Positions 2,837-57,563 of a DNA stretch of 64,000 nucleotides are shown piece by piece (positions within the stretch are counted from its first letter, which is position 1; each line of letters begins with the position of its first letter). The translations under genes were made by a program, and so were the position numbers. The DNA comes from a virus: positions 1 through 64,000 of the IMG/VR virus record IMGVR_UViG_3300031841_005609; one strand, written 5' to 3'. The notes under the pieces were generated by a model. The model ran no database searches and was not told the DNA's origin. It saw only the letters and a program-made list of their open reading frames with translations.

Positions 2837-2839
2837 ACC

Positions 2840-3661: not shown

Positions 3662-3673
3662 AAAGGAACTAGA

Positions 3674-5393: not shown

Positions 5394-5400
5394 GTGAGAA

Positions 5401-6339
5401 ATGAAAAATATTTTAGTAACAGGAGGCTTAGGCTTTATTGGATCTAGTCTCGTAGAAAGGCTTAGAAAAGACAACAAGGTCACAGTCGTAGATAACATCT
5501 CTTCAGCAAGAGAAGACTGGAGAGAGCTAATAGACAAAAATTCAGACGTTGAATATATTGAAGCATGTTATTCATCTCCCATGATTCTTAACTCTCTTAG
5601 AGCTGGAAAATTTGACTATGTTTTTCACGTCGCCGCAGTTCCCAGAGTCTTATATTCTGTAGAAAATCCCGTTGAAACTACTGACAACAATGTAATGAAA
5701 ACCATTTCTCTTATTGACGGTTCTATAAAAGGGGGTGTCAAGAGATTTATCTTTTCTTCTTCTTCGTCTGTTTACGGAGGAGCCGAAGTTCTTCCTACTC
5801 CTGTAGATTTTAAAAAGGATCCTAAGTCACCGTATGCTTGGCACAAGTCATCAGTAGAGGATTACATTGCCATGGCTTCTTTTCTCTACAATGTAGACAT
5901 GGTTTCTCTGAGATATTTTAACGTTTTTGGTCCTGGGCAATTTGGAGGATCTGCCTATTCAACAGCAGTTTCTGCTTGGTGTCATGCAATAAAAAACGAA
6001 AAACCCTTAAGAAAAGACGGGACTGGAGAGCAGTCTAGAGACATGTGTTATATTGACAATGTTGTTGACGCAAACATAAGAGCTATGGAAAGTAAAAACA
6101 AATTTTCAGGTGACTGTTTTAATGTTGCGTGCGGAGACAGAGTTTCTAACAATGAGATTCTAGAATTTCTGTCCAAAAGATATTCTGACATAAAAATAAA
6201 AGAAGCACCGTTCAGGATGGGTGATGTAATGCACACTCTGGCGGATATCTCTGAGTCTGAGAAAACTCTGGGATACTCTCCTAAAATTAGGTTCTGGGAA
6301 GGCCTAGAAAAAACTTTAGAATGGTGGGGTTTAGACTGA
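5401..6339 (+). CDS. NAD-dependent nucleotide-sugar epimerase/dehydratase (extended SDR), copy 2
   Basis: A 312-residue extended SDR, 7 bases after copy 1. Residues 5-16 read L-V-T-G-G-L-G-F-I-G-S-S. S-S-S-S-S-V-Y-G lies near 119-126, the active-site pair is Y145-A-W-H-K149, and R-Y-F-N-V-F-G-P-G is near 181. It is clearly homologous to copy 1 but diverged throughout, so the two probably catalyse different steps, for example 4-epimerisation and decarboxylation or dehydration. Which one does which cannot be read from motifs. It ends the first run of sugar genes; a 58-base AT-rich gap follows before the nuclease gene. Confidence 0.85.
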   Translation: MKNILVTGGLGFIGSSLVERLRKDNKVTVVDNISSAREDWRELIDKNSDVEYIEACYSSPMILNSLRAGKFDYVFHVAAVPRVLYSVENPVETTDNNVMKTISLIDGSIKGGVKRFIFSSSSSVYGGAEVLPTPVDFKKDPKSPYAWHKSSVEDYIAMASFLYNVDMVSLRYFNVFGPGQFGGSAYSTAVSAWCHAIKNEKPLRKDGTGEQSRDMCYIDNVVDANIRAMESKNKFSGDCFNVACGDRVSNNEILEFLSKRYSDIKIKEAPFRMGDVMHTLADISESEKTLGYSPKIRFWEGLEKTLEWWGLD

Positions 6340-6397
6340 ACTTAAACTTTTGATCATTTTTTTCTAATATTGATTTATAATTTATAAGAGAGAAAAC
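6340..6397 (+). promoter_or_regulatory. AT-rich intergenic gap with possible promoter
   Basis: This is one of the few real gaps in a tightly packed stretch. It contains TTGATC at 6350-6355 and TATAAT at 6376-6381. The 20-base spacing is longer than ideal for a sigma-70 promoter, so the call is weak. A purine run (AAGAGAGAAAA) before ATG 6398 serves as ribosome binding site. Confidence 0.25.
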
Positions 6398-7261
6398 ATG
6401 TCAAAAGAACAATCTCTACCTCTTTTACCCACCGGTAAGCCTCACATCTCTTTTTCAGAAGCGAGAATGTGGAAAGAATGTCCTTGGCGACATAAGCTGG
6501 TTCACATAGATAAGCTTTCTATCCAGGAAGAATCACCTCACCTTCATTATGGTACTTTAGTTCACGAAGCAGTTGAAAATTTCTTGAACACTAAAGTGAT
6601 GGACATAAAGAGTTGTCAAGAAAAGATAGAGGAAGCCTGGAACGAACATGGTTTCGACACGCAGGAGTTTGTAGAAAAGCAGACAGCTTCAGCTCAAAAA
6701 CAAGGTTGGAAATATAGACACGACAATCTAGACAGCTGGAAGGAATCTGCAGAAAACTGCCTAACAAGACTTCCTGATTTTATGGATGAAAATTTCGGAG
6801 AGTGGAGGTCAATCGAGGCTGAGCATCAACTCTATGAAAACATAAAAGGTTGCCAGGGAGAAAAGTTTAAAGGTTTTATTGATGCCATCATCCTTTCAAA
6901 AATTGACGGAAAGAAAAAAGCTTGGATCATAGACTGGAAGACTTCTTCACCTCGAGGATGGTCCAAAGAAAAGAGACAAGACTTCTTAATGCAGGCTCAG
7001 CTAATGCTCTATAAGTCTTTTTGGTCTGAAAAAATGGAACTTCGTAGCAGAGATATCTCTTGTGGTTTTGTTCTATTAAAAAAGAAAACAAAGATGGAAA
7101 AATCAGTTCAGCTAATACCCGTTTCAGCAGGTCCTACCTCAATGGAAAGATCTCAAAAAATGATTCGAAGTGCAATCAAGGGTATTAAGTCTGGAATGCT
7201 TCTTAAGAACAGAGAAGCATGCAAATTTTGTGAATTTAAAGACACGCCTCATTGCACTTGA
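6398..7261 (+). CDS. PD-(D/E)XK nuclease with Cas4/AddB-type Fe-S cysteines
   Basis: A 287-residue RecB-family nuclease. Conserved parts in order: S-F-S-E-A-R-M-W-x-x-C-P (C28), G-T-L-V-H-E-A-V-E (H56), F-I-D-A-I-I (D162), and I-I-D-W-K-T-S giving D179-x-K181, the D...(D/E)xK active site. The C-terminus has C275-x-x-C278 and C286, which with C28 form the four-cysteine cluster that binds 4Fe-4S in AddB, Dna2 and Cas4. Such enzymes degrade or process DNA ends. Similar proteins occur in T4-like marine phages. Its position between sugar genes shows no functional link; it is more likely a recombination or host-DNA-degrading enzyme. No helicase domain is attached. Confidence 0.85.
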   Translation: MSKEQSLPLLPTGKPHISFSEARMWKECPWRHKLVHIDKLSIQEESPHLHYGTLVHEAVENFLNTKVMDIKSCQEKIEEAWNEHGFDTQEFVEKQTASAQKQGWKYRHDNLDSWKESAENCLTRLPDFMDENFGEWRSIEAEHQLYENIKGCQGEKFKGFIDAIILSKIDGKKKAWIIDWKTSSPRGWSKEKRQDFLMQAQLMLYKSFWSEKMELRSRDISCGFVLLKKKTKMEKSVQLIPVSAGPTSMERSQKMIRSAIKGIKSGMLLKNREACKFCEFKDTPHCT

Positions 7262-7300
7262 GCGCGTTTACTAAACAGTGCCTCTATGTAATATTCGATC

Positions 7301-8557
7301 ATGAATGAAAAATATAAAGTTTTAGTCCTTTCCGACCATGCGCTAAGTACATCAGGAGTCGGCTGTCAGACAAGGTTCTTAATTGAAGGTCTTTTGAAAA
7401 AAGGTAAATGGTCCTTTAGACAGTTCGGTGCAGCGATCAAGCACACAAACTACGATGTTGTTCAAGTCAATCCTGACTTTATCATCAAGCCCATCGATGG
7501 TTTTGGTGATAGAAATATGATACTCCAGACCTTGATAGCTGAAAAGCCTGACGCAGTTTTAATATTCACAGACCCAAGATTTTTTATCTGGCTCTTCGAG
7601 ATTGAAGATGAGATAAGGCAACTTTGCCCGATAGCTTACTGGCACGTCTGGGACAACTATCCTTTTCCGGAGTATAACAGGCCTCTGTATGCCTCCACTG
7701 ACTTAATAAATTGTCACTCTCACATGACCTATGAGATGGTCAAGAAAGAGTTTCCTGATAGAACAAACTTTATTCCTCATTCTTTACCAGAAGAGATATT
7801 CTATCCCCTGCCAGCCAGCGAAGTCAGGCAGTATAAGTCTGAAGTCCTAGGAAAAGGAACTGAGGATAAGTTTGTCTTGTTTTGGGTAAACAGAAATGCT
7901 AGAAGAAAAAGACCTAATGATGTCTTGTGGGCCTGGAAGAAATTTCTAGATAAAGCAGAAGCCTCGGGAAGAAAGAACGATGCTTTGCTTTTAATGCATA
8001 CAGACCCTACTGATAATGAAGGTCCAAATTTGCTCGAAACCGCTTCTTCTTTAGGAATTCAGGACTCTATTGTCTTTTCGAACCAGAGGCTTGAATTCGA
8101 AAAAATGAATGTCTTGCACAATATGGCAGATGCTTGCATAAACATATCTTATGCAGAGGGTTTTGGGCTTGCTACTCTTGAGGCAATGAATTGCGGAAAA
8201 CCTATCATAGCAGGAAAGACTGGTGGTCTAACAAGACAAGTTGTTGATCACAGGGATGGTTCTGAAAACGGAGTAGCACTACCAATAAGATGCAAGAGCC
8301 TTGTCGGCTCTCAATCTGTCCCTTACATTTACGAAGACTACGTAGATGTCGACGAAACAGCGGACGCCATCTTTAAGTTATACAGTATGACAAAAGAAGA
8401 GAGATCTTCTCTGGGCAAAAAAGCTAGGGACTATGCACTTTCTGAGTTTTCTTATCAAAAGACCATTGACCTTTGGGATGAGACTCTAGAGAAGCTAATA
8501 CTAGAAAAAAGAGAAAACCCACCAAAACGTTGGACAATTCAGGAGGTCAAGCCTTGA
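7301..8557 (+). CDS. Glycosyltransferase, GT4/GT-B type
   Basis: A 418-residue protein. The N-terminus has the nucleotide-fold start V-L-V-L-S-D-H...S-G-V-G-C-Q-T-R (residues ~6-25), as in retaining GT-B transferases. The C-terminal half has F-W-V-N-R-N-A-R-R-K-R-P near 199-210 and, near 287-300, Y-A-E-G-F-G-L-A-T-L-E-A-M, the E-x7-E donor-binding motif of GT4 enzymes, followed by C-G-K-P-I-I-A. It would transfer a sugar from a nucleotide donor, plausibly made by the upstream dehydrogenase and epimerases. No membrane segment is seen. The gap of 39 bases before it has GTTTAC at 7266-7271 and TATGTAAT further on, part of a recurring intergenic pattern. Confidence 0.85.
   Translation: MNEKYKVLVLSDHALSTSGVGCQTRFLIEGLLKKGKWSFRQFGAAIKHTNYDVVQVNPDFIIKPIDGFGDRNMILQTLIAEKPDAVLIFTDPRFFIWLFEIEDEIRQLCPIAYWHVWDNYPFPEYNRPLYASTDLINCHSHMTYEMVKKEFPDRTNFIPHSLPEEIFYPLPASEVRQYKSEVLGKGTEDKFVLFWVNRNARRKRPNDVLWAWKKFLDKAEASGRKNDALLLMHTDPTDNEGPNLLETASSLGIQDSIVFSNQRLEFEKMNVLHNMADACINISYAEGFGLATLEAMNCGKPIIAGKTGGLTRQVVDHRDGSENGVALPIRCKSLVGSQSVPYIYEDYVDVDETADAIFKLYSMTKEERSSLGKKARDYALSEFSYQKTIDLWDETLEKLILEKRENPPKRWTIQEVKP
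8541..8556 (+). promoter_or_regulatory. Strong Shine-Dalgarno deciding a TTG start
   Basis: AGGAGG at 8541-8546 lies seven bases before TTG 8554-8556. This fixes the start of the second glycosyltransferase at that TTG rather than at an in-frame TTG 24 bases upstream. The TTG overlaps the preceding gene's TGA (TTGA). Confidence 0.8.
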
Positions 8558-9720
8558 AGTCAGTTCTTTTAAGAGGTCCAGTATTTTCTAAATCGGGCTA
8601 TGGCGAACACACTCGCCAGATTTACAGATATCTTCGTGAGCAAAACGTCAAAATATCTATAGAGTCTTTAAACTGGGGTTATACACCTTGGTTTGTCAAG
8701 AGTTCTGACTACTTCGGACTTATCGGAGAGATGCAAGAAAAATGCAGCAGAGATCCTAGCGAGAAATATGATGTCACCATACAGTGTCAGCTTCCAAACG
8801 AATGGGATCCTAATCTTGGTAATTTCAACATCGGCGTAACTGCGGGTGTTGAGACAGACTTTGCAAATCCTTCATGGACAACTGTTGACGTCAACAAAAT
8901 GGACCTTGTTTTAGTTCCTTCCGAATTCACCAAGAGTTCTTTTGAAAAACTAGTAAAGCCCAGAACTGAGATAAAAGTAGTTCCTGAATCTTATTATGAT
9001 GAACTACTAACTGATTCTCAAAAGTCTGAGGCTGAAGAAGCCCTTGTTACCGACTTTAACTTCTTGACAGTCGGAGTTTTGACAGGCACTTCTCCCGAGA
9101 CAGACAGAAAGAATCTTTTCTATCTAATAAAATGGTTTGTCGAAGAGTTTAAGAATGACAAGAACGTTGGGTTGGTTATAAAGACCAACAAGGGAAGAGA
9201 CACCGAAATAGACAAAGTAGCGACAACTCGTCTTTTAGCACAAGTTCTTAGTGAGGTAGGACACACAGGTTTTCCTAGAGTCTATCTTCTTCACGGAGAG
9301 ATGTCTAGACCGGACATGAGAGATCTTTATAAGTCTGAAAAAATAAAAGCCTACGTTTCAGCAACAAGAGGTGAGGGATTTGGATTGCCTTTGCTCGAAG
9401 CGGCTGTTTCAGGATTGCCTGTAATTGCCACAAACTGGTCAGCTCACACTGAATTTTTAAACAGAGGTAAGTGGATAAGTCTAGACTTTGATCTAAAAGA
9501 AGTAGCAGATTCAAAGATAGACGATCAGATATTCATCAAGGGGTCTAAATGGGCCGAAGTCAGAGAAGACGATTTCAAGAGAAAGCTTAGAAATTTTTAT
9601 AAAAAGCCGGGTCTTCCCAAAGAGTGGGCAAAAAATCTTAGCGGAAATTTGAAAAAAGAATATTCAATAGAGTCTATTAAAAATCACTATCACGAGGCAA
9701 TAGGAGATCATCTCACTTGA
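8554..9720 (+). CDS. Glycosyltransferase, GT4/GT-B type, second copy
   Basis: A 388-residue protein starting at TTG 8554. Near the N-terminus it reads R-G-P-V-F-S-K-S-G-Y-G-E-H-T-R. L-V-P-S-E-F-T-K lies near 125, G-V-L-T-G-T-S-P-E near 171, and the donor-binding T-R-G-E-G-F-G-L-P-L-L-E-A-A near 270-283, followed by G-L-P-V-I-A-T. These are GT4 motifs. It is related to, but clearly different from, the upstream GT4 enzyme, so the pair may add two successive sugars. It overlaps the membrane-protein gene by four bases and closes the carbohydrate cassette. Confidence 0.85.
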   Translation: MKSVLLRGPVFSKSGYGEHTRQIYRYLREQNVKISIESLNWGYTPWFVKSSDYFGLIGEMQEKCSRDPSEKYDVTIQCQLPNEWDPNLGNFNIGVTAGVETDFANPSWTTVDVNKMDLVLVPSEFTKSSFEKLVKPRTEIKVVPESYYDELLTDSQKSEAEEALVTDFNFLTVGVLTGTSPETDRKNLFYLIKWFVEEFKNDKNVGLVIKTNKGRDTEIDKVATTRLLAQVLSEVGHTGFPRVYLLHGEMSRPDMRDLYKSEKIKAYVSATRGEGFGLPLLEAAVSGLPVIATNWSAHTEFLNRGKWISLDFDLKEVADSKIDDQIFIKGSKWAEVREDDFKRKLRNFYKKPGLPKEWAKNLSGNLKKEYSIESIKNHYHEAIGDHLT

Positions 9721-45456: not shown

Positions 45457-47955
45457 ATGTCGATCATAAAATTTTCACGTGACAACTTCGAAAATTATGA
45501 ACTAGTCGCTCGACCTGAAAAAGTATTTAGATCATCTTCTGACGGAGGCCTAGAAGGAGATATTCTTCTCATGAAGGATGCTTCTCCGAGCCTGAAAGAT
45601 ATTTCTAGAAAAGAAGTCGTAACAAGCTCCATAAAAAAGGGGAAGACCTGGAAAGGTCTAAATCAGTATGATGATTCTGTCTCCGATAGTTTCGTAGACC
45701 TTTTTTCTGCAGGAGGTCCTGCATCAGAAGAAGCCCTTAGACTTGTAAATCAGACAAAAACAGGTCTCAGATACAGAAAGCGTCAGGAGATTTTCAGGAC
45801 TATTCCAGGGACTCAGTTTAACAAAACTTATCTTAAGAAAAGAGTTGTCAAGAATAACTTAATGCCTTACTATAGAGCGTTCTACGAATCTATGGAGTGG
45901 GCTTATACAAACTATCATTGCTTAAACTTTTTTGAAAACACTAACGTTCCTTCTGAGTCTGCTTTGATCTATCCTGCTTTGACAGAATCGTCAGGAGAAA
46001 GTTCATACGCTCCTTCCTCCAGTTTTACGATAGAGTTTTACGTAAAACCGAGAGAAAACAGTGATGCTATAAGGGCAGGCTCAGAAGTTTCTCCTGGAAC
46101 GATACTTCACATGTCATCTTGCTATGCGGTCAGTCTTGTTACAGGTTCTTCTACTGGTCCGGACGGAAAGCCTGATGGGTATAGAGTATTACTTCAACTA
46201 AGTGAAAGCGCGGACATAAACCCATCTAATTGCATAGTCTCAAGTAATCAAGTGTCTGCGGGGAACACGAGCTGTGACAAGAGCTTCATATTCGCCTCAT
46301 CAGACAACTCTCTTTCTAGAGATGTTTGGAGTCATGTTGCAATAAGGTGGCCCGGGTCGTCTAACAACATGGGATCGGGTTCTTTTGTAATTAACGGAAA
46401 GAAAGATTCTGATTTTGTAATAACATCTTCTATTGTCATGCAGACAACCACATCTATTGGCTCTAACCTAGGTAATCCTGATGCTGTTTTTATCGGAAAC
46501 TATTTTAGCGGAGAAAATTCAGGAAACTCTACAATCGCTAGGTTCTTTAACAATACTGCAGGAAGAGACGAAGGTGTTTCTCCGATCCTCAGTGGAGCAC
46601 TAGGCGATATCGCAGATCCCGTTGGTTTCAAGTTCACTTCTCCTCTAAGGGCTGAGCTTCACGAAATAAAGATATTTGATAAATTTAGAAGCTTGCCCAA
46701 TATCAACAAAGATATGAAAACCGGCGTGAGCAAGATCGGATCAAGTCTTAAGTTTTATGTACCACCTTTCTTTATAAAGGAATCTAGAAGGAGAAACATT
46801 CTTCAGACTCCGTTTTTCACAGAGGTCGGTAAGACTGATGATCCTTTTAACATTCCTCTTTCTTTTGGACTTGGGTCTTTAGACATAAACGTCGAAAATT
46901 TCGTGAGAGAGATGGTTAAAAAAGAGTACCCAAGGCTCTGGAATTTAACAGCATCTGCTGACAACTCAGTAGCTTACGAAGAGGGGAAGACTTCAAACGA
47001 TGTAATCTATGGTCGACAGGGTTCTGCTAGAAAAAGGTTGAGAACAGTAATGCCCTGTGATAACGGAATGTTCTATCCTGACTTTTCTTTTTTAAAGACT
47101 GGATCGAACAGCTCGAGCAAGTTCACAGACAGCTATGGTTCTACTAGACTTGACCTAATAAGTCTGGAATCTATGGTGACTCCTAGCACTCTGTTAAAGG
47201 ATCTTGCCATCTTGGACGACTCTATATCTAGGACTCCCGGAGGAGATGGTTCTTTAGTGGGGGGACCTGCCTGGGGACAGATATCTGACGAAGGTTCCTC
47301 TCCTTTCGGCCCGAAATACTTTTTAAATGATCTTGTCGGAGCAAACCCACAGGACCCATCACTAGCCCCGGGAGCAATTCTTTCAGTCCTGCAAAGAACT
47401 GGAGACCCAAGCTCGAGTGAAGTTGTGATGTTTGATATATCCAATATGTTTTACGGAGATTCGATCACACCAGGCTCTCTTTTGATAGAAGATTTAGCAC
47501 CAACGGGATCTGAGGGAAGCTTTACTTTAAAGGTAAGAGATAACTCATATGGTAATCTATACAGGGCTGATGTGAAGAATCCCGAGAAGGCAGCAAGGTG
47601 GGCGTCTGTCGGTAACGTTTTTTACGAAGAAGGAATCGTGCTAATCAAGTCTCCTCATCTAGCTTTTTTCGGAAAAGAAGACTTTAGAATAACTTTCAAG
47701 GGAGAGAAAACTGTTTACGTTCTCGAGATAATTGTACCAGTCGAAGCTTCAAAGCATAATTCCTCATCAAACCCCACATACAAAGATCTGTCTCCCACAG
47801 ACTATTCTAACGAGACCTCCAGAAAATTTACGTACATATCGTCTATTAACTTACATGATGACAATCTTAATGTTATAGGGAAAGCAAATTTAAGTCAGCC
47901 TTTCTTGAAAAGAAACGAAGACAAAGTCGTCATAAAGTTAAGGATGGATTTTTGA
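45457..47955 (+). CDS. LamG-containing virion protein with shared C-terminal module
   Basis: An 832-residue protein. Residues ~185-415 form a LamG-like domain (S-F-T-I-E-F-Y-V-K-P, W-S-H-V-A-I-R-W, S-F-V-I-N-G-K-K, L-H-E-I-K-I-F-D-K). The final ~65 residues (S-S-S-N-P-T-Y-K-D ... S-I-N-L-H-D-D ... G-K-A-N-L-S-Q-P ... L-R-M-D-F) align with the end of the preceding protein, so both may plug into the same virion site. The C-terminal module is probably the docking part, with LamG outward. It overlaps the resolvase gene by four bases (TTGA). Confidence 0.65.
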   Translation: MSIIKFSRDNFENYELVARPEKVFRSSSDGGLEGDILLMKDASPSLKDISRKEVVTSSIKKGKTWKGLNQYDDSVSDSFVDLFSAGGPASEEALRLVNQTKTGLRYRKRQEIFRTIPGTQFNKTYLKKRVVKNNLMPYYRAFYESMEWAYTNYHCLNFFENTNVPSESALIYPALTESSGESSYAPSSSFTIEFYVKPRENSDAIRAGSEVSPGTILHMSSCYAVSLVTGSSTGPDGKPDGYRVLLQLSESADINPSNCIVSSNQVSAGNTSCDKSFIFASSDNSLSRDVWSHVAIRWPGSSNNMGSGSFVINGKKDSDFVITSSIVMQTTTSIGSNLGNPDAVFIGNYFSGENSGNSTIARFFNNTAGRDEGVSPILSGALGDIADPVGFKFTSPLRAELHEIKIFDKFRSLPNINKDMKTGVSKIGSSLKFYVPPFFIKESRRRNILQTPFFTEVGKTDDPFNIPLSFGLGSLDINVENFVREMVKKEYPRLWNLTASADNSVAYEEGKTSNDVIYGRQGSARKRLRTVMPCDNGMFYPDFSFLKTGSNSSSKFTDSYGSTRLDLISLESMVTPSTLLKDLAILDDSISRTPGGDGSLVGGPAWGQISDEGSSPFGPKYFLNDLVGANPQDPSLAPGAILSVLQRTGDPSSSEVVMFDISNMFYGDSITPGSLLIEDLAPTGSEGSFTLKVRDNSYGNLYRADVKNPEKAARWASVGNVFYEEGIVLIKSPHLAFFGKEDFRITFKGEKTVYVLEIIVPVEASKHNSSSNPTYKDLSPTDYSNETSRKFTYISSINLHDDNLNVIGKANLSQPFLKRNEDKVVIKLRMDF

Positions 47956-48503
47956 TAATACTTGGACTAGATATATCAACATCAGTGACAGCCTACACAG
48001 TCTTAGACTCAGAAAGACCTCCAGGGCAAAGGCTTGTCCTTTCTGAAGGAATACACCTTTCTAAAATAAAAGATTCTTACGCCAAGTCCTGCAAGGTCAG
48101 GGATGAGTTTAGAAAGCTATCTGAGAAGTGGAAAGTTGACAAGATAATCGTAGAAGAGTCTTTACAGTCTTTTAGATCTGGTCTTTCTTCTGCGAAAACC
48201 CTTTCTGCCTTGACTAGATTTAATGGAATTGTAAGTTTTTTCGCTCAAGATATCTTTGAAGCCCCGTGTGAAAGAATAAACGTAAATTCAGCTCGCTCTA
48301 GACTCGGAATTAAGATAGACCGAAAGTCTTCTGTCTCTAGTAAGGAACAGGTTAGAGACTGGGTCATGAACCACGAAGACTTTAAGAACTTTCCGTGGCC
48401 TACAAAGACTTTGAAATCGGGACCAAGAAAAGGCCTTACAATATACGATGTTTCTTGTCAAGATATTGCAGATAGTGCCGTGATGGCTCTTTGTAGCACT
48501 TAA
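47952..48503 (+). CDS. RuvC-like Holliday-junction resolvase (RNase H fold)
   Basis: A 183-residue protein starting at TTG 47952 in a TTGA overlap. The acidic active-site set of the RuvC/RNase H fold is visible: D7 in L-G-L-D-I-S-T-S, E68-E69 in I-I-V-E-E-S, and D171/D174 near the end in Q-D-I-A-D-S-A-V-M-A. These enzymes cleave four-way junctions symmetrically; in phages they resolve branched replicative DNA before packaging. T4 uses the unrelated endonuclease VII (gp49), so this looks like a functional substitute. It is followed by primase and the Mre11-Rad50 fusion. Length fits the family (about 160-190). Confidence 0.75.
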   Translation: MIILGLDISTSVTAYTVLDSERPPGQRLVLSEGIHLSKIKDSYAKSCKVRDEFRKLSEKWKVDKIIVEESLQSFRSGLSSAKTLSALTRFNGIVSFFAQDIFEAPCERINVNSARSRLGIKIDRKSSVSSKEQVRDWVMNHEDFKNFPWPTKTLKSGPRKGLTIYDVSCQDIADSAVMALCST

Positions 48504-48538
48504 TTGAACACTTCGCTCCTTAATCATATTATTCATTG

Positions 48539-49477
48539 ATGATTAGGGAAAAAGCAAAAAACACTTTGGTGCGAGCTTTCGGATCCGGATTCTTATCAAG
48601 AGACGGAGTCAATTTTGCTGTCTCTTGTCCCGAGTGCGATTCCACTAGATCAAAGAAAAAGTTCTCTGTAAGGCTTGATGACTACAGATATCATTGTTGG
48701 GTCTGTGGAATCAAAGGCAAGAACGTTTGGCTTTACCTAAGAAAGAAACTCGGCTTTAGAGACATTGATGAAAGTCTGCTCAAGCCAATAAAAGATACTT
48801 CTGAAGAAGAAGTTAGCGAGTCTATCTACTTGCCTAAAGACTTTGTTCCTCTGTTTAGAAAGACTCGAGACCCTGACGTAAAAGCCGTTCTAAACTATAT
48901 CAAAAAACGCGGCTACACTTCAGCTGACATATACAGGTGGAGAATAATGACCACAACCACAGGTAGGTTTAGAAGAAGGGCAATCATTCCTTCTTTCGAC
49001 GATCAAGGTGAGGTAAACTACTATGTTGGTAGATCCATCGATGACGGAAGTTTTAAGTATCTTAACGCTAAAGTACCTAAGCGGGAAATCGTATTTAATG
49101 AAATAGATATTGACTGGTCTAAGCCAGTTGTGCTAGTAGAGGGCGTTTTTGACGCAATGAAGTGTCCGGACAACACAATACCAGTCCTGGGCTCTTCGCT
49201 GTCAGTTAAGTCTAGGCTTTTTAGAAAGCTCATGAAGCATCAGTCTGATGTAATTGTTTCTTTCGATCCGGATCTGAAGGAAAAAGCCCTTGTTTTGGCA
49301 AACAACCTGTACGAAGCCGGATGCAAAGTAAGGGTTTGCTTTGCCCCTGAGGGTCACGACTTAGGATCTCAGACTAAGTCTCAAAACAAAGCGCTCTTGA
49401 GATCATCTAAGATTTACACTCCTTATTCTAAGCTCGAGCATAGAATCAACCTAATAAGAAGCGGAACTATTATATGA
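48539..49477 (+). CDS. DNA primase (zinc finger plus TOPRIM)
   Basis: A 312-residue primase. An N-terminal zinc ribbon has C30-x-x-C33 and C53-x-x-C56 with H52 adjacent, and F-S-V-R-L-D between them, as in DnaG/T7-type CHC2-like fingers. The TOPRIM domain follows: V-V-L-V-E-G-V-F-D-A-M with E201, and a later S-F-D-P-D metal site near 239-243. It synthesises RNA primers for lagging-strand replication and is the functional counterpart of T4 gp61. I prefer ATG 48539 to TTG 48536. No good Shine-Dalgarno is seen in the 35-base gap (TTAATCATATTATTC), so translation may be modest. No helicase domain is fused. Confidence 0.85.
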   Translation: MIREKAKNTLVRAFGSGFLSRDGVNFAVSCPECDSTRSKKKFSVRLDDYRYHCWVCGIKGKNVWLYLRKKLGFRDIDESLLKPIKDTSEEEVSESIYLPKDFVPLFRKTRDPDVKAVLNYIKKRGYTSADIYRWRIMTTTTGRFRRRAIIPSFDDQGEVNYYVGRSIDDGSFKYLNAKVPKREIVFNEIDIDWSKPVVLVEGVFDAMKCPDNTIPVLGSSLSVKSRLFRKLMKHQSDVIVSFDPDLKEKALVLANNLYEAGCKVRVCFAPEGHDLGSQTKSQNKALLRSSKIYTPYSKLEHRINLIRSGTII

Positions 49478-52400
49478 CTTATAAGTTTGCTCATTTTGCT
49501 GATGTTCACTGGCGAGGTTTAACTCGCCACAAAGAATACAGGCGATCTTTCGAAGACGCTTTTGACAAAATGAGAAGAGAAAATCTCGACGGAATATTCA
49601 TCGTAGGTGACATCGTCCATTCAAAAACCCAGGGAATCTCTCCTGAACTCATAGATAACCTTTGCTGGTGGTTTAATGAAATGGCCTCCATAGCTCCTGT
49701 CTACGTGACTCTAGGAAATCATGACGGCCTAATCATGAACAAGGATAGAGAAGACGCTATAAGCCCTATAGTGAGAGCCATAAACAATCCGAACATCTTT
49801 CTTTCTAAGCATTCCGAAGTGTTCTTTGTAGGTGATGATATTGCCGTAACGAACTTTAGCTGTTTCGACGAAGAGAACTGGGAAAAATTTAAGCCGAAGA
49901 GAGGTAAGATAAACATAGCTCTTTTTCACGGAGCTGTTACTGGAAGTGAAACTGATATCAACTGGGAGCTAGACGGAGAAGTTGATGAAGGTTTTTTCAA
50001 AGGTTTTGACTTTGCTTTTCTCGGAGACATCCACAAGCATCAGTACCTTGACAAAGAAAAAAGAATATCTTATTGCGGAAGTACAATTCAGCAGAATTTT
50101 GGAGAAGACCCTGGAAAGGGTTTCATGATATGGGAGATAGACTCTAAGAAAAAGTTCTCTTCTAGACATGTTGAAGTCTTGCATGACATGCCTTATGTCA
50201 CCATAGATTGGAAAGGTAATGTAGGAGACACTTTAGACGAGGCAGAAAAGCACCCAGATCGAGCCAGGTTTAGAATTAGAACCAGTGTTCCGATAAGCCA
50301 GGGAGAGATAAAACAAATCTATTCTGCTCTCAAAGAGTTCAAGTCAGCCTCTGAAATCGTAATGAAGCAAGATTTCGCGAGACCAGAATTAGTGCTTGAG
50401 GAAAACACTCTGAGGAAGAAGATGAATCTCAGAGATCCAAGCTCAGTCTCAATGATGGTGAAGGAATACTATACTAAAGCTGGACTAAGTGACAGAGTGA
50501 ACACGAAGCTGGAAGATCTAGTTCAGAGGTTCTGGAAGCATGTCTCTAAAGTAGAAGCGCCTCAAAGCGGACAGTGGTCGATAAGATCTCTAGAGTTTGA
50601 TAATCTTTTCGGATACGGAAAAGGAAACAAGATAAACTTTGATGAGATAGACGGCATTACCGGAATATTCGGGAAGAATAGGATAGGAAAGTCTTCTATA
50701 TGTGGTGCAATCATGTACACTCTGTTCAATACAACAGACAGAGGCTCTATTTCAAATCTTCATGTCATAAACTCTAGAAAAGGTCATTGTAAGTCTTCTG
50801 CTATCATCTCTAAAAGAGGAAAGTTTTATAAGATCGAGAGACAATCAATAAAGAAAGAGTCCAGGGCTGGAAAACTCTCTGTCTCAACACAGTTAAACTT
50901 GCTTGAAATAGATCAGGATGGAAACGTTATAAAAGATCTTTGTGGTGAACAAAGAAGAGAAACAGAAAAAACTCTTAAGAATCTTGTAGGTAACGCAGAA
51001 GATTTTCTTCTAACCAGCTTTGCATCTCAAGGTGCTATGAATTCTTTTCTAAGCCAAAAAGCTTCTTCTAGAAAGTCAGTTCTTAGTAATTTTTTAGATC
51101 TTGACGTGTTTGATCAGCTTAATGACGCCGCTAAAGCTGAGTCTTCTGGAATTAAGCAAATGATAAAGAATGCTCCCGATAGAGATTACGATTTGTCGAT
51201 TGTCGAGACTAAGAACAAGCTCAATGCTAAGATGGCTGAGAGAGATGGTCTTTATGAAAGCTTAGATCTTCTAAGGGGAAGGATAAGAGATCTAGATCTT
51301 AGTCTTGAAACAAGAGACGACAATAACCTGGTAACTCAACAAGACCTAGATGATCAAACAAAAAGAGTTCGATCCTTGCGAGACAGAAAAAAAGGTCTAG
51401 AAATCAAAGTAGAAAAGCTTGAAAAAGATCTCGTTGAGATATCTTCGAAGACCGACCGAATCCAGGAGATTAAGTCAACTTTTCCGATAGAAGACTTGAA
51501 GGTAACGCTCGCTGAAGAGAAAAGCCTAGACGAATCATCAGTTCAGATAAAACATAAGCTTGACAAGGAAAAGCAGACACTCAAAATAATAAACAATCAG
51601 GTTGATGTTTTAAATCAAGTTCCCTGTGAAGACAAGTTTCCTGATTGTAAGTTTATAGTTGAGGCTCACAAAGCAAAGAAGAAATTAAAGGGAAAAGAGA
51701 AGATAATAGAAAGTCTGTCAGAAGATCTAAAGGTCACGAAGGCTCAGTTAAGAAAACTTCAGGCAAAAGAGCTTGACAAAAAGCTTGACAAATACAATGA
51801 CCTTATTTCTTCTTTCGGAGAGCTTTCTCTAGAGAAGAATGATATAACATTAAGCCTTTCTTCTGCTAAGAACGATCTTGAAAAGACAAATGATTCTCTT
51901 GTCAGAGAAGTTAAGGTTCTCGACGAAATGAAAGTCAATCTTTCCACTGATGACAAAGCCGAACAGATAAGTGAAATGAGAAGCAAGCTAAGGGATCTTA
52001 AGTCAGCTCAGGTAGACATGGAAGAAAAATATTCTCGTCTTTCTGAGGATGTAGGTTTGCTTCAAGCCAGAGTTTCAAAGCTTTCTGAAGAAAAAGAAGA
52101 GTACGAAGCTCTCATAGAGAATTGGAGAGTTTACGAGCTTTTCCTTCAAGCCACTTCTAAAAATGGCCTGCCGCTAGAGATAATCAGATCTAGAATTCCT
52201 GAAATCAATCTTGAGATAGCCTCTATTCTGCAGGGAGTTACAGGGTTTACTGTTGAATTAGAATCTTTCGAAGGATCTAACGATATGGACATTTTTATTA
52301 ACTACGGAGACTCTAAGAGAATAATTGAATGTTGCAGCGGGATGGAAAAAATGATGTCCGCTCTTGCTATAAGAGTTGCACTAACGAACGTCTCAGAGCT

Positions 52401-52608
52401 TTCCAAGTCAAACATATTCATGATAGATGAGGGTTTTGGGGCTCTGGATTCTGGCAATGTAGAAGCATGCAGCAGATTTCTTGAGTCTCTAAAGAAGTGG
52501 TTCAGAACTATTATGATAATCTCTCACGTTGATGCCGTTAAAGACGCGGTCGACAACGTCTTGGAAATAGGTAAGGACGGAAAAGATGCGTTTATCAGAC
52601 AGGAATGA
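49474..52608 (+). CDS. Single-chain Mre11-Rad50 (SbcD-SbcC; gp47-gp46) fusion
   Basis: A 1044-residue uninterrupted reading frame. Residues 1-~345 are a calcineurin-type nuclease like gp47/SbcD/Mre11: F-A-D-V-H-W (D10, H12), V-G-D-I-V-H (D46), G-N-H-D (81-84), L-F-H-G near 150-153 and G-D-I-H-K-H (184-189). From ~367 it is a Rad50/SbcC/gp46 ATPase: L-F-G-Y-G, Walker A G-K-N-R-I-G-K-S-S near 400-408, a coiled coil (~570-930) with C718-x6-C725 at the likely hook, a C-S-G-M-E-K signature and Walker B F-M-I-D-E-G-F-G-A-L-D (~982-992). In T4 these are two genes. The complex degrades host DNA and resects ends for recombination-dependent replication. ATGA overlap with primase. Confidence 0.9.
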   Translation: MTYKFAHFADVHWRGLTRHKEYRRSFEDAFDKMRRENLDGIFIVGDIVHSKTQGISPELIDNLCWWFNEMASIAPVYVTLGNHDGLIMNKDREDAISPIVRAINNPNIFLSKHSEVFFVGDDIAVTNFSCFDEENWEKFKPKRGKINIALFHGAVTGSETDINWELDGEVDEGFFKGFDFAFLGDIHKHQYLDKEKRISYCGSTIQQNFGEDPGKGFMIWEIDSKKKFSSRHVEVLHDMPYVTIDWKGNVGDTLDEAEKHPDRARFRIRTSVPISQGEIKQIYSALKEFKSASEIVMKQDFARPELVLEENTLRKKMNLRDPSSVSMMVKEYYTKAGLSDRVNTKLEDLVQRFWKHVSKVEAPQSGQWSIRSLEFDNLFGYGKGNKINFDEIDGITGIFGKNRIGKSSICGAIMYTLFNTTDRGSISNLHVINSRKGHCKSSAIISKRGKFYKIERQSIKKESRAGKLSVSTQLNLLEIDQDGNVIKDLCGEQRRETEKTLKNLVGNAEDFLLTSFASQGAMNSFLSQKASSRKSVLSNFLDLDVFDQLNDAAKAESSGIKQMIKNAPDRDYDLSIVETKNKLNAKMAERDGLYESLDLLRGRIRDLDLSLETRDDNNLVTQQDLDDQTKRVRSLRDRKKGLEIKVEKLEKDLVEISSKTDRIQEIKSTFPIEDLKVTLAEEKSLDESSVQIKHKLDKEKQTLKIINNQVDVLNQVPCEDKFPDCKFIVEAHKAKKKLKGKEKIIESLSEDLKVTKAQLRKLQAKELDKKLDKYNDLISSFGELSLEKNDITLSLSSAKNDLEKTNDSLVREVKVLDEMKVNLSTDDKAEQISEMRSKLRDLKSAQVDMEEKYSRLSEDVGLLQARVSKLSEEKEEYEALIENWRVYELFLQATSKNGLPLEIIRSRIPEINLEIASILQGVTGFTVELESFEGSNDMDIFINYGDSKRIIECCSGMEKMMSALAIRVALTNVSELSKSNIFMIDEGFGALDSGNVEACSRFLESLKKWFRTIMIISHVDAVKDAVDNVLEIGKDGKDAFIRQE

Positions 52609-52837
52609 AGTATATTTTATCGAAGATGGAGACAGGGTGCATTCATTCTGCCCTGTTTGTGGTTTTCTGGCTAGAGATTCCGAAGACTTGGATATCATAC
52701 AAAAAGAAAAAGCCTGTAGAGAATGTACTGGTAATTTCAAATACTTAGATCTAGAGTCCTGGGAAAGAGGAGATCGACCTACAAGAGAAGAAGCTAGGTC
52801 TAAAATACATTTTCATAGTGGAGAAAGTACAAAATGA
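52586..52837 (+). CDS. Small zinc-ribbon protein
   Basis: An 83-residue protein starting inside the end of the fusion gene (23-base overlap). Two cysteine pairs, C-P-V-C near residues 22-25 and C-R-E-C near 44-47, could bind one zinc in a ribbon. The remainder is hydrophilic. Position between DNA-repair and packaging genes suggests a DNA- or RNA-polymerase-related accessory, but no family is recognised. AAGGA upstream at 52573-52577 supports the start, and the ATGA overlap with the next gene supports that it is translated. Confidence 0.6.
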   Translation: MRLSDRNEVYFIEDGDRVHSFCPVCGFLARDSEDLDIIQKEKACRECTGNFKYLDLESWERGDRPTREEARSKIHFHSGESTK

Positions 52838-53199
52838 ATAAACTAGAATTAGTTGCAAGACTTGTTGATAACACATACAACCCAGTGTCAAAGTCGGGTA
52901 CGTATTCAATTAAGACTTCCATGCAGGGAAGCAGGCTTGTTGTAAAGTTTAGCACGATAGTTAACTTTGCTTCTGAGGCATCTTTAAGACCTCAAGTTCA
53001 ATCATCAAAAGAACACGCCGTTCAGCTTATAAAAGACTTTATTGCAAACCTTAAGAAAAACTACAAGGCAGAGACAGGAGAAGCTCTAAAGGTTGAAGAT
53101 GAAGGCGGAGATGACAACATAGAGATGATTCAAGCAACTTCAAATTCACTCAGAAAAATAGCTTATTACAGATATAATCAGACTTTAGAGATATCTTAA
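52834..53199 (+). CDS. Unknown small protein before the large terminase
   Basis: A 121-residue protein. Residues 20-50 look like a beta hairpin (G-T-Y-S-I-K-T-S-M; L-V-V-K-F-S-T-I-V), followed by a helix with K-E-H-A-V-Q-L-I-K-D-F-I and a C-terminal helix ending Y-R-Y-N-Q-T-L-E-I-S. I know similar short proteins next to gp17 in T4-like phages only as unnamed ones. Its sequence does not look like the helical gp16 ring. It ends seven bases before gp17 and probably shares its transcript. Confidence 0.55.
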   Translation: MNKLELVARLVDNTYNPVSKSGTYSIKTSMQGSRLVVKFSTIVNFASEASLRPQVQSSKEHAVQLIKDFIANLKKNYKAETGEALKVEDEGGDDNIEMIQATSNSLRKIAYYRYNQTLEIS

Positions 53200-53205
53200 C
53201 AGACT

Positions 53206-54771
53206 ATGAACAAAAATCTTCAGGTCAAAGAGATAATAAAATGCGGAAAAGATCCGTCTTACTTTCTCAAAAAGTACATAAAGATTCAGCACCCTACTAA
53301 AGGTCTGGTCAACTTTGACACTTATGACTTTCAAGACGAGTGCCTGAAAGATTTCGTAGATCATAGATTCAATATCATCTTGAAGTCCAGGCAGCTAGGT
53401 ATATCTACTTTGTCTGCTGCTTACGCCGTCTGGTTAGCTTATTTCTATAGAGACAAAAACATACTGATCATCGCAACCAAGCTTGCAGTTGCCCAGAACT
53501 TTATCAAAAAAGTAAAAACAGCCCTTAGAGGTCTTCCCGGGTGGATGAACCTCACTGAAGTAGTAGGATCCAACAAGCAGGGCGTAGAGTTTAGTAACGG
53601 TTCTCAAATCAAAGCAGTACCCACTTCAGATGATGCAGGTCGCTCTGAAGCTTTGAGCCTCTTGATAATTGACGAAGCTGCGTTCATTAGAAACTTTGAT
53701 GAACTCTGGATGGGTTTGTATTCTACTCTATCCACAGGCGGTAGATCAATAATTCTTTCCACGCCGAATGGAGTCGGAGACAAGTACCATGAACTCTGCA
53801 CAGACGCTCAGGCAGGAGAGAACGAGTTCAATCTAATCAAGCTTATGTGGGATGTCCACCCAGACAGAGACGAAGAGTGGTTCGCCACTGAGACTCGAAA
53901 CATGAGCAAGAAGCAAATAGCACAAGAGCTTATGTGTGACTTTGCAGCTTCAGGAGATACGTTTTTAAACGCTCCTGACCTTGAAACTCTGGCTCTTAGG
54001 GTAAAGACCCCTATTGAGAGATGGGGCCCTGATATGAATGTCTGGGTCTGGAAGTATTCTCTTACTGAGCACAAATATGTAGTCAGCGCCGATGTGTCAA
54101 GAGGTGACGCCGCCGACTATTCTACTTTTCACGTTTTAGATGTCAATTCAGGTGAGCAGGTAGCTGAATATAAGGGAAAGATTCCGCCTGACCAGTTTGC
54201 TGTTTTGCTAGCAGAGGCCGGAAAGAGGTATAATAATGCCTTAGTTTGTCCAGAAAACAACACGTATGGCTATGCAGTCATAATGAAGCTTGTCGAACTA
54301 GGGTACACAAACCTGTATTACAAGAACGAAAAGGACAAACTTAGTGCCCTCTACACAGGAAACAACCAGATATCTAAGATAGGCTTCTCCACAAACGCCC
54401 AATCGAGAGGACAGATACTTACTAAACTAGAAGAGGTGCTAAGAAACAACTCAGTAGCTTTTTATTCTTCTCGTCTCGTTGACGAATTGAAGACTTTTGT
54501 CTGGAAGGGACAGAAAGCGCAGGCTCAAAAAGGCAAAAATGACGATCTTGTCATGGCAGCTGCAATTGGAACGTGGCTTTTCGATTCAGATCCCAAGGTA
54601 AATTCTCAAACAACGGATCTTAACAAGGCTATGCTTGATGGCTTTGCTGTCAACAGAAGAGAGTACGGTCAAAAGAAAAGTCCGTGGAGCCGATTCGGGT
54701 GGAACAATCCGAATCGAACGTATCCTTCGAAGTCCGGACCTCACGGCGATGATTTTGACTGGATTTTATAG
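53206..54771 (+). CDS. 17: Large terminase subunit gp17
   Basis: A 521-residue two-domain packaging motor. The ATPase domain has Walker A S-R-Q-L-G-I-S-T (61-68), Walker B L-L-I-I-D-E-A-A-F with D156/E157, and an S-T-P-N-G coupling motif near 184-188. The C-terminal RNase H-like nuclease has D296 in V-S-A-D-V-S-R-G-D, E350 in C-P-E-N-N and D446/D447 in N-D-D-L-V-M-A. It docks on the portal, pumps DNA into the prohead and cuts the concatemer (headful). Length is slightly shorter than T4 gp17 (610). All key residues are present. Portal follows after a 55-base gap. Confidence 0.95.
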   Translation: MNKNLQVKEIIKCGKDPSYFLKKYIKIQHPTKGLVNFDTYDFQDECLKDFVDHRFNIILKSRQLGISTLSAAYAVWLAYFYRDKNILIIATKLAVAQNFIKKVKTALRGLPGWMNLTEVVGSNKQGVEFSNGSQIKAVPTSDDAGRSEALSLLIIDEAAFIRNFDELWMGLYSTLSTGGRSIILSTPNGVGDKYHELCTDAQAGENEFNLIKLMWDVHPDRDEEWFATETRNMSKKQIAQELMCDFAASGDTFLNAPDLETLALRVKTPIERWGPDMNVWVWKYSLTEHKYVVSADVSRGDAADYSTFHVLDVNSGEQVAEYKGKIPPDQFAVLLAEAGKRYNNALVCPENNTYGYAVIMKLVELGYTNLYYKNEKDKLSALYTGNNQISKIGFSTNAQSRGQILTKLEEVLRNNSVAFYSSRLVDELKTFVWKGQKAQAQKGKNDDLVMAAAIGTWLFDSDPKVNSQTTDLNKAMLDGFAVNRREYGQKKSPWSRFGWNNPNRTYPSKSGPHGDDFDWIL

Positions 54772-54826
54772 TTTAGGTTTGAATCCTTCTGAATACAATA
54801 ATTATGAAGTGCAATAGGAGTGTTTC

Positions 54827-56755
54827 ATGTCTGAGCAGGCAAGTTTATTTACTAGACTAACAAAACTTTTTAGATCAGGCCCCGTTGTAAAAAGAAGAGT
54901 TAGAAACGTTAAGACAGCTGGAGCTTCTACAGCCCTAGAGGTTTTTAAAAGAGCACACAGCGATGTATACAATAGCACGCTAAGTGCTTACGGAGCTTTC
55001 GATAGAATGGCTCGCTATAGCGACTTCAGTGAAATGGAGTCAACTCCAGAAATAGCATCTGCTCTTGACATCTACGCAGAAGAGACCGTTTCTTCCGACG
55101 AAAAAGGACAAGTCCTACACATCTATTCAGAGAACAGAAAGGTTCAAGAAATCCTGGAGAACCTTTTTCACGACGTCCTTAACGTAGAATTCAATTTAGT
55201 AATGTGGGTAAGAAATCTTTGTAAGTACGGAGACTTTTTTCTTTTTAACGACATACATCCTGATTATGGTGTGATCAATGCTTACCCAATATCGATAAGC
55301 GAAATGGAAAGAGAAGAGGGGTTCGACACGAAAGATCCCTCTGCAGTTCGATTCCGATGGGTGACTCAAGGAAATCAAGTTTTAGAAAACTGGCAAGTAT
55401 CACACTTCAGGCTCTTGGGCAACGACGCTTTTCTTCCCTATGGATCCTCCGTGTTAGAGGCCGCCAGAAGAATTTGGAGACAGTTAATCCTCATTGAAGA
55501 TGCCATGCTCGTTTACAGAGTAATTAGAGCTCCGGAAAGAAGAGTATTTTATTTAGATGTAGGTAATGTACCGCCAGAAGATGTTTCGAACTATATCGAA
55601 CAGGCTCAAACAAGCTTAAAAAGAAACCAAGTCGTAGACAAGTCTAACGGACAGGTCGACATAAGATACAACCCGCTTTCTGTAGATGAAGATTACTTCT
55701 TGCCCGTTAGAGGTGGTGAAAGCGGAACGAGAATTGATACTCTTGCTGGCGGCCAAAATACAGCTGCCATAGAAGATGTCGAATACATACAGAAGAAGCT
55801 GTTTGCAGCTCTCAAAATACCCAAAGCTTATCTGGGATATGACGAGGAAGTCGGAGCCAAGGCTACGCTTGCCCAAGAAGATATAAGGTTTAGCAGGTCA
55901 ATCCAGCGGATTCAAAAGACAATATTGTCTGAGCTTAACAAGCTCGCGATGATTCACCTCTATTGTCATGGTTACGAAGGAGAAGATCTCGTTGAGTTTG
56001 ATCTAAGGCTGTCTAATCCCTCATCGATCGCCCAACAACAAAAGCTCGAGCTTATAAGATCTAGATTTGAGATAGCAGGTTCAGCACCTGAAGGATCTGT
56101 CGACAGGTCCTGGATTCAAAAAAATGTTTTAGGTCTTACTGACGAAGAGATAGAAAAAATTCACGAAGGACGTCTCGAAGACAAGCTTAGAGATCTCGAG
56201 GTCGAAGCAGTTCAAGCACCTGAAGCTGAAGGCGCTCCCGCCGGCGAAGCTGGTGATGAAGGCGGAGAAGAACCCGCCGAAGACGAAGGAGAAGATCTCT
56301 TCGCCGGCGATAGAAAAGATGATGAACTTTTGACCGCTTTGCCCGCAAGAAAAGACAAAAAAGAAGAGTCTGAAGATGATGATCACCCTGTCCTTTCTAT
56401 ACAGGATCTAGATGCTCCTGTTAAAGCAGACAGACAGATTCGAAATGCCTTTGGCCAGAAGATAAAAAAGTCTAGAAAGGTAACAGCTGGACCTGGGTCT
56501 ACTCACATGCCGGATTTTGTTAAAATGACTTCAACTGGAAAAGCAGGCAGAAAACAAGACACGATGAACAAACCTTTTGATAACGATTTTCTAAAAGATC
56601 CATTTTCAGAATCAATGTCGAGTTTTTCTCCTCCGAGGCTTACTTATGATTTAGTAAACACTCTTAACTCGATGGGAGACAAAATACAGGTTAAGAGACA
56701 AAAGCTATTGTCAGAAATTGATGAAAAACAAGGAGACCCTAATGGCGAAGCATAA
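54827..56755 (+). CDS. 20: Portal protein gp20
   Basis: A 642-residue protein, longer than T4 gp20 (524). Conserved portal features include E-M-E-S-T-P-E-I-A-S-A-L-D-I-Y-A-E-E near residues 68-85 and the crown/stem part Q-K-K-L-F-A-A-L-K-I-P-K-A-Y-L-G-Y near 323-339. I-R-F-S-R-S-I-Q-R-I-Q-K lies near 355-366. The extra length is an acidic Glu/Gly/Ala-rich C-terminal tail (56215-56400) followed by a basic stretch. It forms the dodecameric vertex for DNA entry, the head-assembly initiator and the neck connection. AGGAGTG precedes the ATG. It overlaps the next gene by 14 bases. Confidence 0.92.
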   Translation: MSEQASLFTRLTKLFRSGPVVKRRVRNVKTAGASTALEVFKRAHSDVYNSTLSAYGAFDRMARYSDFSEMESTPEIASALDIYAEETVSSDEKGQVLHIYSENRKVQEILENLFHDVLNVEFNLVMWVRNLCKYGDFFLFNDIHPDYGVINAYPISISEMEREEGFDTKDPSAVRFRWVTQGNQVLENWQVSHFRLLGNDAFLPYGSSVLEAARRIWRQLILIEDAMLVYRVIRAPERRVFYLDVGNVPPEDVSNYIEQAQTSLKRNQVVDKSNGQVDIRYNPLSVDEDYFLPVRGGESGTRIDTLAGGQNTAAIEDVEYIQKKLFAALKIPKAYLGYDEEVGAKATLAQEDIRFSRSIQRIQKTILSELNKLAMIHLYCHGYEGEDLVEFDLRLSNPSSIAQQQKLELIRSRFEIAGSAPEGSVDRSWIQKNVLGLTDEEIEKIHEGRLEDKLRDLEVEAVQAPEAEGAPAGEAGDEGGEEPAEDEGEDLFAGDRKDDELLTALPARKDKKEESEDDDHPVLSIQDLDAPVKADRQIRNAFGQKIKKSRKVTAGPGSTHMPDFVKMTSTGKAGRKQDTMNKPFDNDFLKDPFSESMSSFSPPRLTYDLVNTLNSMGDKIQVKRQKLLSEIDEKQGDPNGEA

Positions 56756-57563
56756 CAAGAAGCGCAACGTCGGTCTACTACATGAACAGCTTATTAGGCA
56801 TGCTAGTAGAATGACAGTCGAGGGCAGTGTCGAAAAAGCTCAAGATGCAGTCGACATTGTGACTAGGCATTTTAAAAGAGGATCTGAGACCCTGAGAGAA
56901 TTCAGGCTTTTTAGCTCTCTTATCCACACTAAGGTTGATTCCAAAGACCTTGCTCAAAGAATCGTTGCTGAAAGCAGAAGAGCATGCATGGATCATGACT
57001 CCGAAAAGCTCCGAAGAGAAAAATCTTTGCTCATAAAAGATATCAATCATCTTTTGAACGAGGAGAGCTTTTACGATCAAAGGATTCCGACCTATAGAAT
57101 ATTCGCAACAGTTCAGGCTCTACTCAATGAGTGGCGAGGAGCATCAAGACTCACACCTGCCGAAATTGTAAAGTATGAATCACGGTTGGTTGATCACTTG
57201 ACTCGGCAGGAAGCTGAGAATGAACTCCAGAGATCAGAAAACGCCGATCCTTTAGTACTAAACATAATGATCGAGAAGTTCAACAAGAAGTATGGAAAGA
57301 CACTCTCAGAAGATCAAAGAAAGATTCTTGAGCTCAGGCTTATGAACAAAAACGAAGAAGCTGTTGTTTTGATGGAGTCTGTCAAGAAAAAGACGCTAGC
57401 ATCAATCGATCGATTCTATGAATCTCTTGAAAACGAATATCTTGGAAAGAAAAGAGATGTTCTCGTTGAGAGAGTTACAAATTTTCAGCCAGACGAAACA
57501 GATGAATCAGTGGCAAAAGCTCTTTCTCTGGCAAATCTTTTATCAGAACTGGAGGCGGAATAA
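56742..57563 (+). CDS. Helical head-region protein (possible prohead core component)
   Basis: A 273-residue, almost completely helical and charged protein between portal and protease. The start is ATG 56742, preceded by AAGGAGA; an in-frame start 24 bases earlier lacks a good site. Conserved-looking blocks are K-K-R-N-V-G-L-L-H-E-Q-L-I near 5-17, H-F-K-R-G-S-E-T-L-R-E-F-R-L-F near 42-56, and E-S-F-Y-D-Q-R-I-P-T-Y-R near 107-118. I associate this family with T4-like phages of marine origin at the gp67/gp68 position, where small internal prohead core proteins lie in T4. The functional call rests on position and composition only. Confidence 0.6.
   Translation: MAKHNKKRNVGLLHEQLIRHASRMTVEGSVEKAQDAVDIVTRHFKRGSETLREFRLFSSLIHTKVDSKDLAQRIVAESRRACMDHDSEKLRREKSLLIKDINHLLNEESFYDQRIPTYRIFATVQALLNEWRGASRLTPAEIVKYESRLVDHLTRQEAENELQRSENADPLVLNIMIEKFNKKYGKTLSEDQRKILELRLMNKNEEAVVLMESVKKKTLASIDRFYESLENEYLGKKRDVLVERVTNFQPDETDESVAKALSLANLLSELEAE

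Follow-up and report, generated by a model that had tools for sequence, protein, structure and literature searches.

Fusions of the Mre11 nuclease and the Rad50 ATPase in a single polypeptide were described in 2011 by Yoshida, Claverie and Ogata, who reported Mimivirus R555 and twelve further fusions in bacteria, eukaryotes and Bacillus phage 0305phi8-36, plasmid fusions being described as well (PMC3175470). R555 departs from the usual nuclease motifs at two sites: the third Asp of the motif is replaced by His, and Asp242 stands where P. furiosus has His206 (PMC3175470). As reported, aquatic viral metagenomes are rich in R555-like genes, many of which lie next to phage genes, primases among them, and the authors concluded that many of these metagenomic genes may belong to phages (PMC3175470). 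In this study, we analyzed 64,000 nucleotides of viral DNA (the window; positions 1 to 64,000 of IMG/VR record IMGVR_UViG_3300031841_005609), in which the gene at 49474–52608 on the plus strand very probably encodes, as one chain, a phage Mre11-Rad50 fusion of the R555 class. An earlier note on this DNA had suggested that it may be a distinct compact architecture. The architecture is not new, as such fusions were described in 2011 (PMC3175470) and an alignment-based scan of IMG/VR found at least 581 contigs encoding a relative, of which 80 were kept. The note had also stated that T4 and most of its relatives have separate genes; T4 does have separate genes 47 and 46, but a fusion is not new among phages.

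The gene is one open frame with an ATG start, encoding 1044 residues without an internal stop. As in R555-type proteins, both domains lie in one polypeptide with Mre11 first: a full Mre11 half (nuclease, cap and Rad50-binding helices) is followed by a 9-residue linker (358–366) and a full Rad50 half (ATPase lobes, coiled coil and hook). Pfam Metallophos matches residues 4–188 over its cut-off (E 1.2e-12), and the remainder of the chain matches SMC_N, AAA_23 and SbcC_Walker_B. Additionally, the protein matches an SbcC-like PHROG family (E 4.5e-52), and phmmer against solved structures recovered E. coli SbcC, T. maritima Rad50 and several Mre11 nucleases. The parts of the gene, with the evidence for each, are as follows.

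49474–52608 (+): fused Mre11-Rad50 gene, 1044 residues; single frame, family matches to both halves, AlphaFold2 mean predicted local distance difference test (pLDDT) 84.8
49474–50193 (+): Mre11 calcineurin-like nuclease domain, residues 1–240, with D10, H12, D46, N82, H83, H152, D185 and H187; Pfam Metallophos, invariance in 79 relatives, model
50194–50370 (+): Mre11 capping domain, residues 241–299; model secondary structure, Foldseek match to the SbcD nuclease and capping domain 7dog
50437–50544 (+): two helices, residues 322–332 and 340–357, at the position of the Rad50-binding helix-loop-helix; model, sequence weakly conserved
50545–50571 (+): linker between Mre11 and Rad50, residues 358–366; lower-confidence model loop, alignment length
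50572–51102 (+): Rad50 ATPase N-lobe, residues 367–543, with Walker A 400–408 and Q519; Pfam, phmmer, conservation, model
51103–51600 (+): ascending coiled coil, residues 544–709; model
51601–51663 (+): zinc-hook-like apex, residues 710–730, with C718-x6-C725; cysteine conservation, loop between long helices in the model
51664–52155 (+): descending coiled coil, residues 731–894; model
52156–52605 (+): Rad50 ATPase C-lobe, residues 895–1044, with S955-G956, D985-E986, D992 and H1018; phmmer, conservation, model

T4 and bacteria keep separate, adjoining and often overlapping genes, which makes it plausible at first that two such genes were merged here through a stop or frame lost in assembly. 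However, a second contig (L009) matches the window at 99.93% identity across 7107 bp, with five mismatches and no gaps, and since this match covers window positions 50226–57332, the junction is crossed without an insertion or deletion. Moreover, all 90 uncut open reading frames (ORFs) of relatives span the query from before residue 60 to past residue 990 in a single frame, a count that leaves out 5′-cut contigs, the insert-interrupted LR756508, the divergent fused pT24 and phages with separate genes; the best-studied relatives include proteins of 28–64% identity. The length of the linker is also kept while its sequence is not, the segment aligned with residues 355–367 having 12–14 unconserved residues in all 76 alignment rows. 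Collectively, the second contig and the single-frame relatives indicate that the fusion is the normal state in this viral group; an artefact has hardly any probability and was rejected. The claims that one uninterrupted phage frame holds both proteins, as family matches and the model also indicate, and that no stop was lost at the junction by misassembly are thus upheld. A large group of aquatic phages usually carries the two proteins in this fused form. A search of genome contigs returned no close relative, and the loci examined there held ordinary SbcC and SbcD alone; wherever bacterial loci in the genome collection had both halves, these were SbcD-like and SbcC-like proteins in separate neighboring ORFs. 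Plasmid records gave weak matches at most, none of which was a published plasmid fusion.

Conservation was counted over 79 distinct full-length relatives. D10, H12, D46, N82, H83, H152, D185 and H187 are identical in all of them, and Walker A (400–408), the signature S955-G956, Walker B D985-E986 and H1018 are conserved. The Mre11 half has the elements of the Mre11/SbcD fold (D-x-H, GD, GNHD and later His ligands), with D185 placing Asp at one His-ligand position. The Rad50 half has Walker A, the Q-loop, the signature, Walker B, the D-loop and the H residue, in two lobes that flank the coiled coil. Both nuclease substitutions of R555 are present in the window protein, namely H49 (GDxxH), which directly follows GDxx and is invariant in the 76-row alignment, and D185 (GDxH). 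Among the motifs that the earlier note had listed, D10/H12, D46, GNHD, Walker A, the signature and Walker B stand, but the H-x-H at 187/189 is out of register: residue 189 is His in 8 of the 79 relatives, whereas D185-x-H187 is invariant, so the true equivalent is GDxH. Judged from sequence, GDxH is the counterpart of the usual GHxH, with Asp replacing the first His. His is usual at the D185 position: T4 and A511 have it, as do eight of the nine bacterial SbcD proteins compared; the ninth had no match to the motif searched for. The unfused T5-like Mre11 of Vibrio phage vB_ValS_X1 (L007:3139–4017) has GDLH for GHxH; the Asp substitution is not limited to fusions.

The AlphaFold2 model, built from the 76-row alignment, has a predicted template-modeling score of 0.50. 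It comprises the nuclease, the cap (241–299), helices 322–332 and 340–357, a loop at 358–366, the N-lobe from residue 367, a long coiled coil interrupted at 711–728, and the C-lobe. The capping domain and C-terminal helices (241–299 and 322–357) are thus present in the model and would contact Rad50. The linker is the lower-confidence loop of nine residues, which places the junction at 50545–50571, within the residues 345–367 proposed earlier. In Foldseek comparisons against the PDB, MRN, SbcCD and other SMC-type complexes dominate the matches. Against viral models, the best matches are long DNA repair proteins of Tupanvirus, Harvfovirus, Yasminevirus, Terrestrivirus and Catovirus, together with the DNA repair proteins of Tenacibaculum phages pT24 and PTm1. 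Based on the shared substitutions, the primase neighbor and the fold matches to proteins of Mimivirus relatives, we filed the window protein with the R555-type fusions.

Mre11-Rad50 already acts as a 2:2 complex. The Mre11 C-terminus and the Rad50 N-terminus are about 28 Å apart in the T. maritima complex, a gap that 9–12 linker residues would bridge (PMC3175470). The earlier note held that a fixed 1:1 linkage would constrain how the nuclease docks on the ATPase heads; because the complex is 2:2 in any case and the linker is long enough for this short gap, the linkage changes little.

Several points weigh against the proposed assignment and its functional reading. Membership in the R555 class was judged from the published description and from fold matches to Mimivirus relatives. 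Whole-chain superpositions in both Foldseek comparisons are poor, with template-modeling scores of 0.2–0.4 and a large root-mean-square deviation. This is probably due to the long flexible coiled coil, and the fold matches therefore rely on E-value and coverage. The Rad50-binding helices are weakly conserved (mean majority identity 0.36). Furthermore, other Mre11 proteins have a metal-binding His at the site of D185, and the activity of the window protein could differ accordingly; no biochemistry of any natural Mre11-Rad50 fusion was found in the open-access literature searched.

The hook lacks the CxxC motif and has C718-x6-C725 in its place, conserved in the clade and kept at the hook position, so that the earlier description of a C-x6-C hook at 718–725 proved correct. 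C718 is kept in 77 of the 79 relatives and C725 in all 79. The 21-residue apex has a conservation of 0.71, against 0.67–0.73 for the ATPase lobes and 0.38 for the flanking coiled coils. CxxC hooks occur in the distant fusions of Mel-JY01, LR756508, LR756501 and pT24, and also in T4, A511 and bacteria, where they are mostly CPxC. One subclade of the Rad50 tree, within the fused clade, unites the C-x6-C proteins (support 99/99), which suggests that C-x6-C probably derives from CxxC through a single widening there. A scan with a DNA pattern for the hook matched at least 120 loci; among the matches listed, 68 of the 69 ORFs whose 5′ end is uncut include the Mre11 half as well, the sole exception being L243, a contig in which several frames are broken. 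The hook region alone, searched against phages, gave no match.

A 2026 paper on T4 Rad50 called the CxxC motif absolutely conserved, and no description of a six-residue C-x6-C hook was found in the open-access literature; the hook may be the one part of the finding that is new. We tentatively suggest, as a possibility short of an even chance, that the wide apex is a distinct conserved Rad50 hook derived from CxxC in the fused phage clade, with a coiled-coil pairing geometry or metal affinity unlike that of CxxC. The spacing may affect dimer geometry, as the earlier note proposed, or zinc binding. The idea that wide hooks are exclusive to fusions was rejected: the unfused Rad50 of Moorella phage MTATph1 (L006:4650–6782) has C-x7-C, which places wide hooks outside the fused clade too. 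One relative (L090:3850–6990) has an insertion between the hook cysteines (PCTSPCVKNPALESGIDLSSCKF), and the spacing can exceed six.

Trees were built from 32–33 sequences, with T4, A511, a T5-like phage, MTATph1 and nine bacteria outside the fused group. The fused phage proteins form one group both in the Mre11 tree (support 100/98) and in the tree of Rad50 heads (93/93). Because several branches are very long, a single origin of the sampled phage fusions is favored by these sequences but not proved; the trees concern the sampled phages and bacteria and say nothing on eukaryotic or Mimivirus fusions. In the 484-kb phage LR756508, the fused gene has an insert of about 900 bases directly after the invariant GDIHK nuclease motif (L003, LR756508.1 116583–132721, at about 6650–7600). 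The insert contains its own ORF with zinc-finger-like cysteine-pair motifs, as an intron homing endonuclease might have; an Rfam search of the insert found no intron family.

The neighborhood was compared across 104 related loci, some of which are overlapping copies of one contig. The recurring order is resolvase, primase, fusion, two small ORFs, terminase and portal, represented in the window as follows.

47952–48503 (+): RuvC-like Holliday junction resolvase; PHROG E 2.9e-8, neighbor in 73 of 104 loci
48536–49477 (+): DNA primase, its stop overlapping the fusion start by 4 bases; PHROG E 3.1e-41, upstream in 81 of 104 loci
52586–52837 (+): small neighbor of 83 residues that overlaps the fusion gene at its end; kept in 65 of the 104 loci, weakly matched by a PHROG of unknown function
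52834–53199 (+): small neighbor of 121 residues, placed after the fusion gene and before the large terminase; kept in 90 of the 104 loci, no Pfam or PHROG match
53206–54771 (+): terminase large subunit; Pfam and PHROG, 100 of 104 loci
54827–56755 (+): T4-like portal protein; Pfam Portal_T4 E 2.8e-78, 95 of 104 loci

The 121-residue ORF occupies the place expected for a small terminase subunit. The full record of 106,202 bases encodes a UvsX-like recombinase, a Gp32-like protein, a 5′-3′ exonuclease, a DnaB-like helicase and a DNA polymerase, and it has a single Metallophos gene. The polymerase gene (G000 90969–92105; L114:8969–10105) matches profile positions 963–1195 of 1445 and may be one part of a polymerase split between genes. 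The start of the window (302–9720) carries a run of sugar genes, with sulfotransferase-, sialyltransferase-, UDP-glucose dehydrogenase-, epimerase- and glycosyltransferase-like products.

T4 gp46 and gp47 are regarded as the T4 resection enzymes, by which ends are resected for Gp32 and UvsX, and the UvsX-like and Gp32-like partners in the record fit this scheme. Most likely, the fusion resects ends and bridges DNA in recombination-dependent replication, as gp46/gp47 do. Two fusion chains would pair, with the Rad50 heads closing upon ATP and the Mre11 nuclease dimer seated on them. The terminal helices of each Mre11 would grip the coiled coil at its root, with about nine linker residues spanning the short distance to the Rad50 N-terminus. 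Hydrolysis of ATP would give the nuclease access to DNA ends, whose trimming would supply single-stranded DNA to the Gp32-like and UvsX-like proteins for recombination-dependent replication and repair, while the coiled coil with its cysteine hook would tether ends or sister molecules. The present data directly provide the sequence and domains, the conserved active-site residues, the conserved fusion, the neighbors and the partner genes, whereas 2:2 assembly, ATP gating, resection, tethering and zinc binding are inferred from Mre11-Rad50/SbcCD and T4 biology.

Besides the assembly artefact dealt with above, two other readings were weighed. The fusion might be mainly structural or regulatory, acting in tethering, packaging or ATP-driven clamping, with the nuclease reduced or changed through D185. 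Such a role would suit the invariance of D185 in the 79 relatives at a position where His is usual in T4, A511 and most bacterial SbcD, as well as the nearness of the gene to the terminase and portal. However, every other metal-ligand position is invariant, Asp can bind Mn, and the T5-like Mre11 of phage X1 shares the substitution; we regard this role as quite improbable. Alternatively, the protein might act on the host or its defenses, for example by degrading host DNA, and not in phage recombination. T4 genes 46 and 47 are indeed annotated for both recombination and host-DNA degradation, but here the gene block is one of replication, recombination and packaging, the recombination partners are encoded, and the two roles are not exclusive. 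A role confined to the host thus appears unlikely.

The fusion confirms and extends the 2011 inference: among the abundant R555-like fusion genes of aquatic viral metagenomes are those of a large phage group that has T4-like head genes and keeps the gene in a conserved block for replication, recombination and packaging. With its strict 1:1 supply of both halves, a single-chain Mre11-Rad50 is a handy target for structural and single-molecule work, and the conserved C-x6-C apex offers a direct test of the spacing that a Rad50 hook tolerates.

Compared with known systems, the fusion shares with T4 gp47/gp46 the order of 47 before 46 and action with a UvsX-type recombinase and a single-stranded DNA-binding protein, whereas in T4 the two genes are separated by 46.2 and 46.1, the nuclease motif is GHFH and the hook CPTC. 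Bacterial SbcD/SbcC have the same domains and fold, but lie in separate genes in all loci examined, with GHxH and mostly CPxC hooks. Similarly, Microcystis phage Mel-JY01, huge phage LR756501 and Tenacibaculum phage pT24 have a single-frame fusion with GDIH and group with the window protein in both trees, although their hooks are CxxC and they share 14–28% identity with it over long stretches. Mimivirus R555 differs in its length of 1351 residues, against 1044 for the window protein. The window phage also differs from it in having T4-like head genes; for the hook, the comparison covers the window protein, with its C-x6-C. The likeness to R555 lies in Mre11 preceding Rad50, GDxxH for GDxxD, Asp for P. 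furiosus His206 and a short linker; and like the R555 homologues found beside phage primases in aquatic viral metagenomes, the window gene adjoins a primase.

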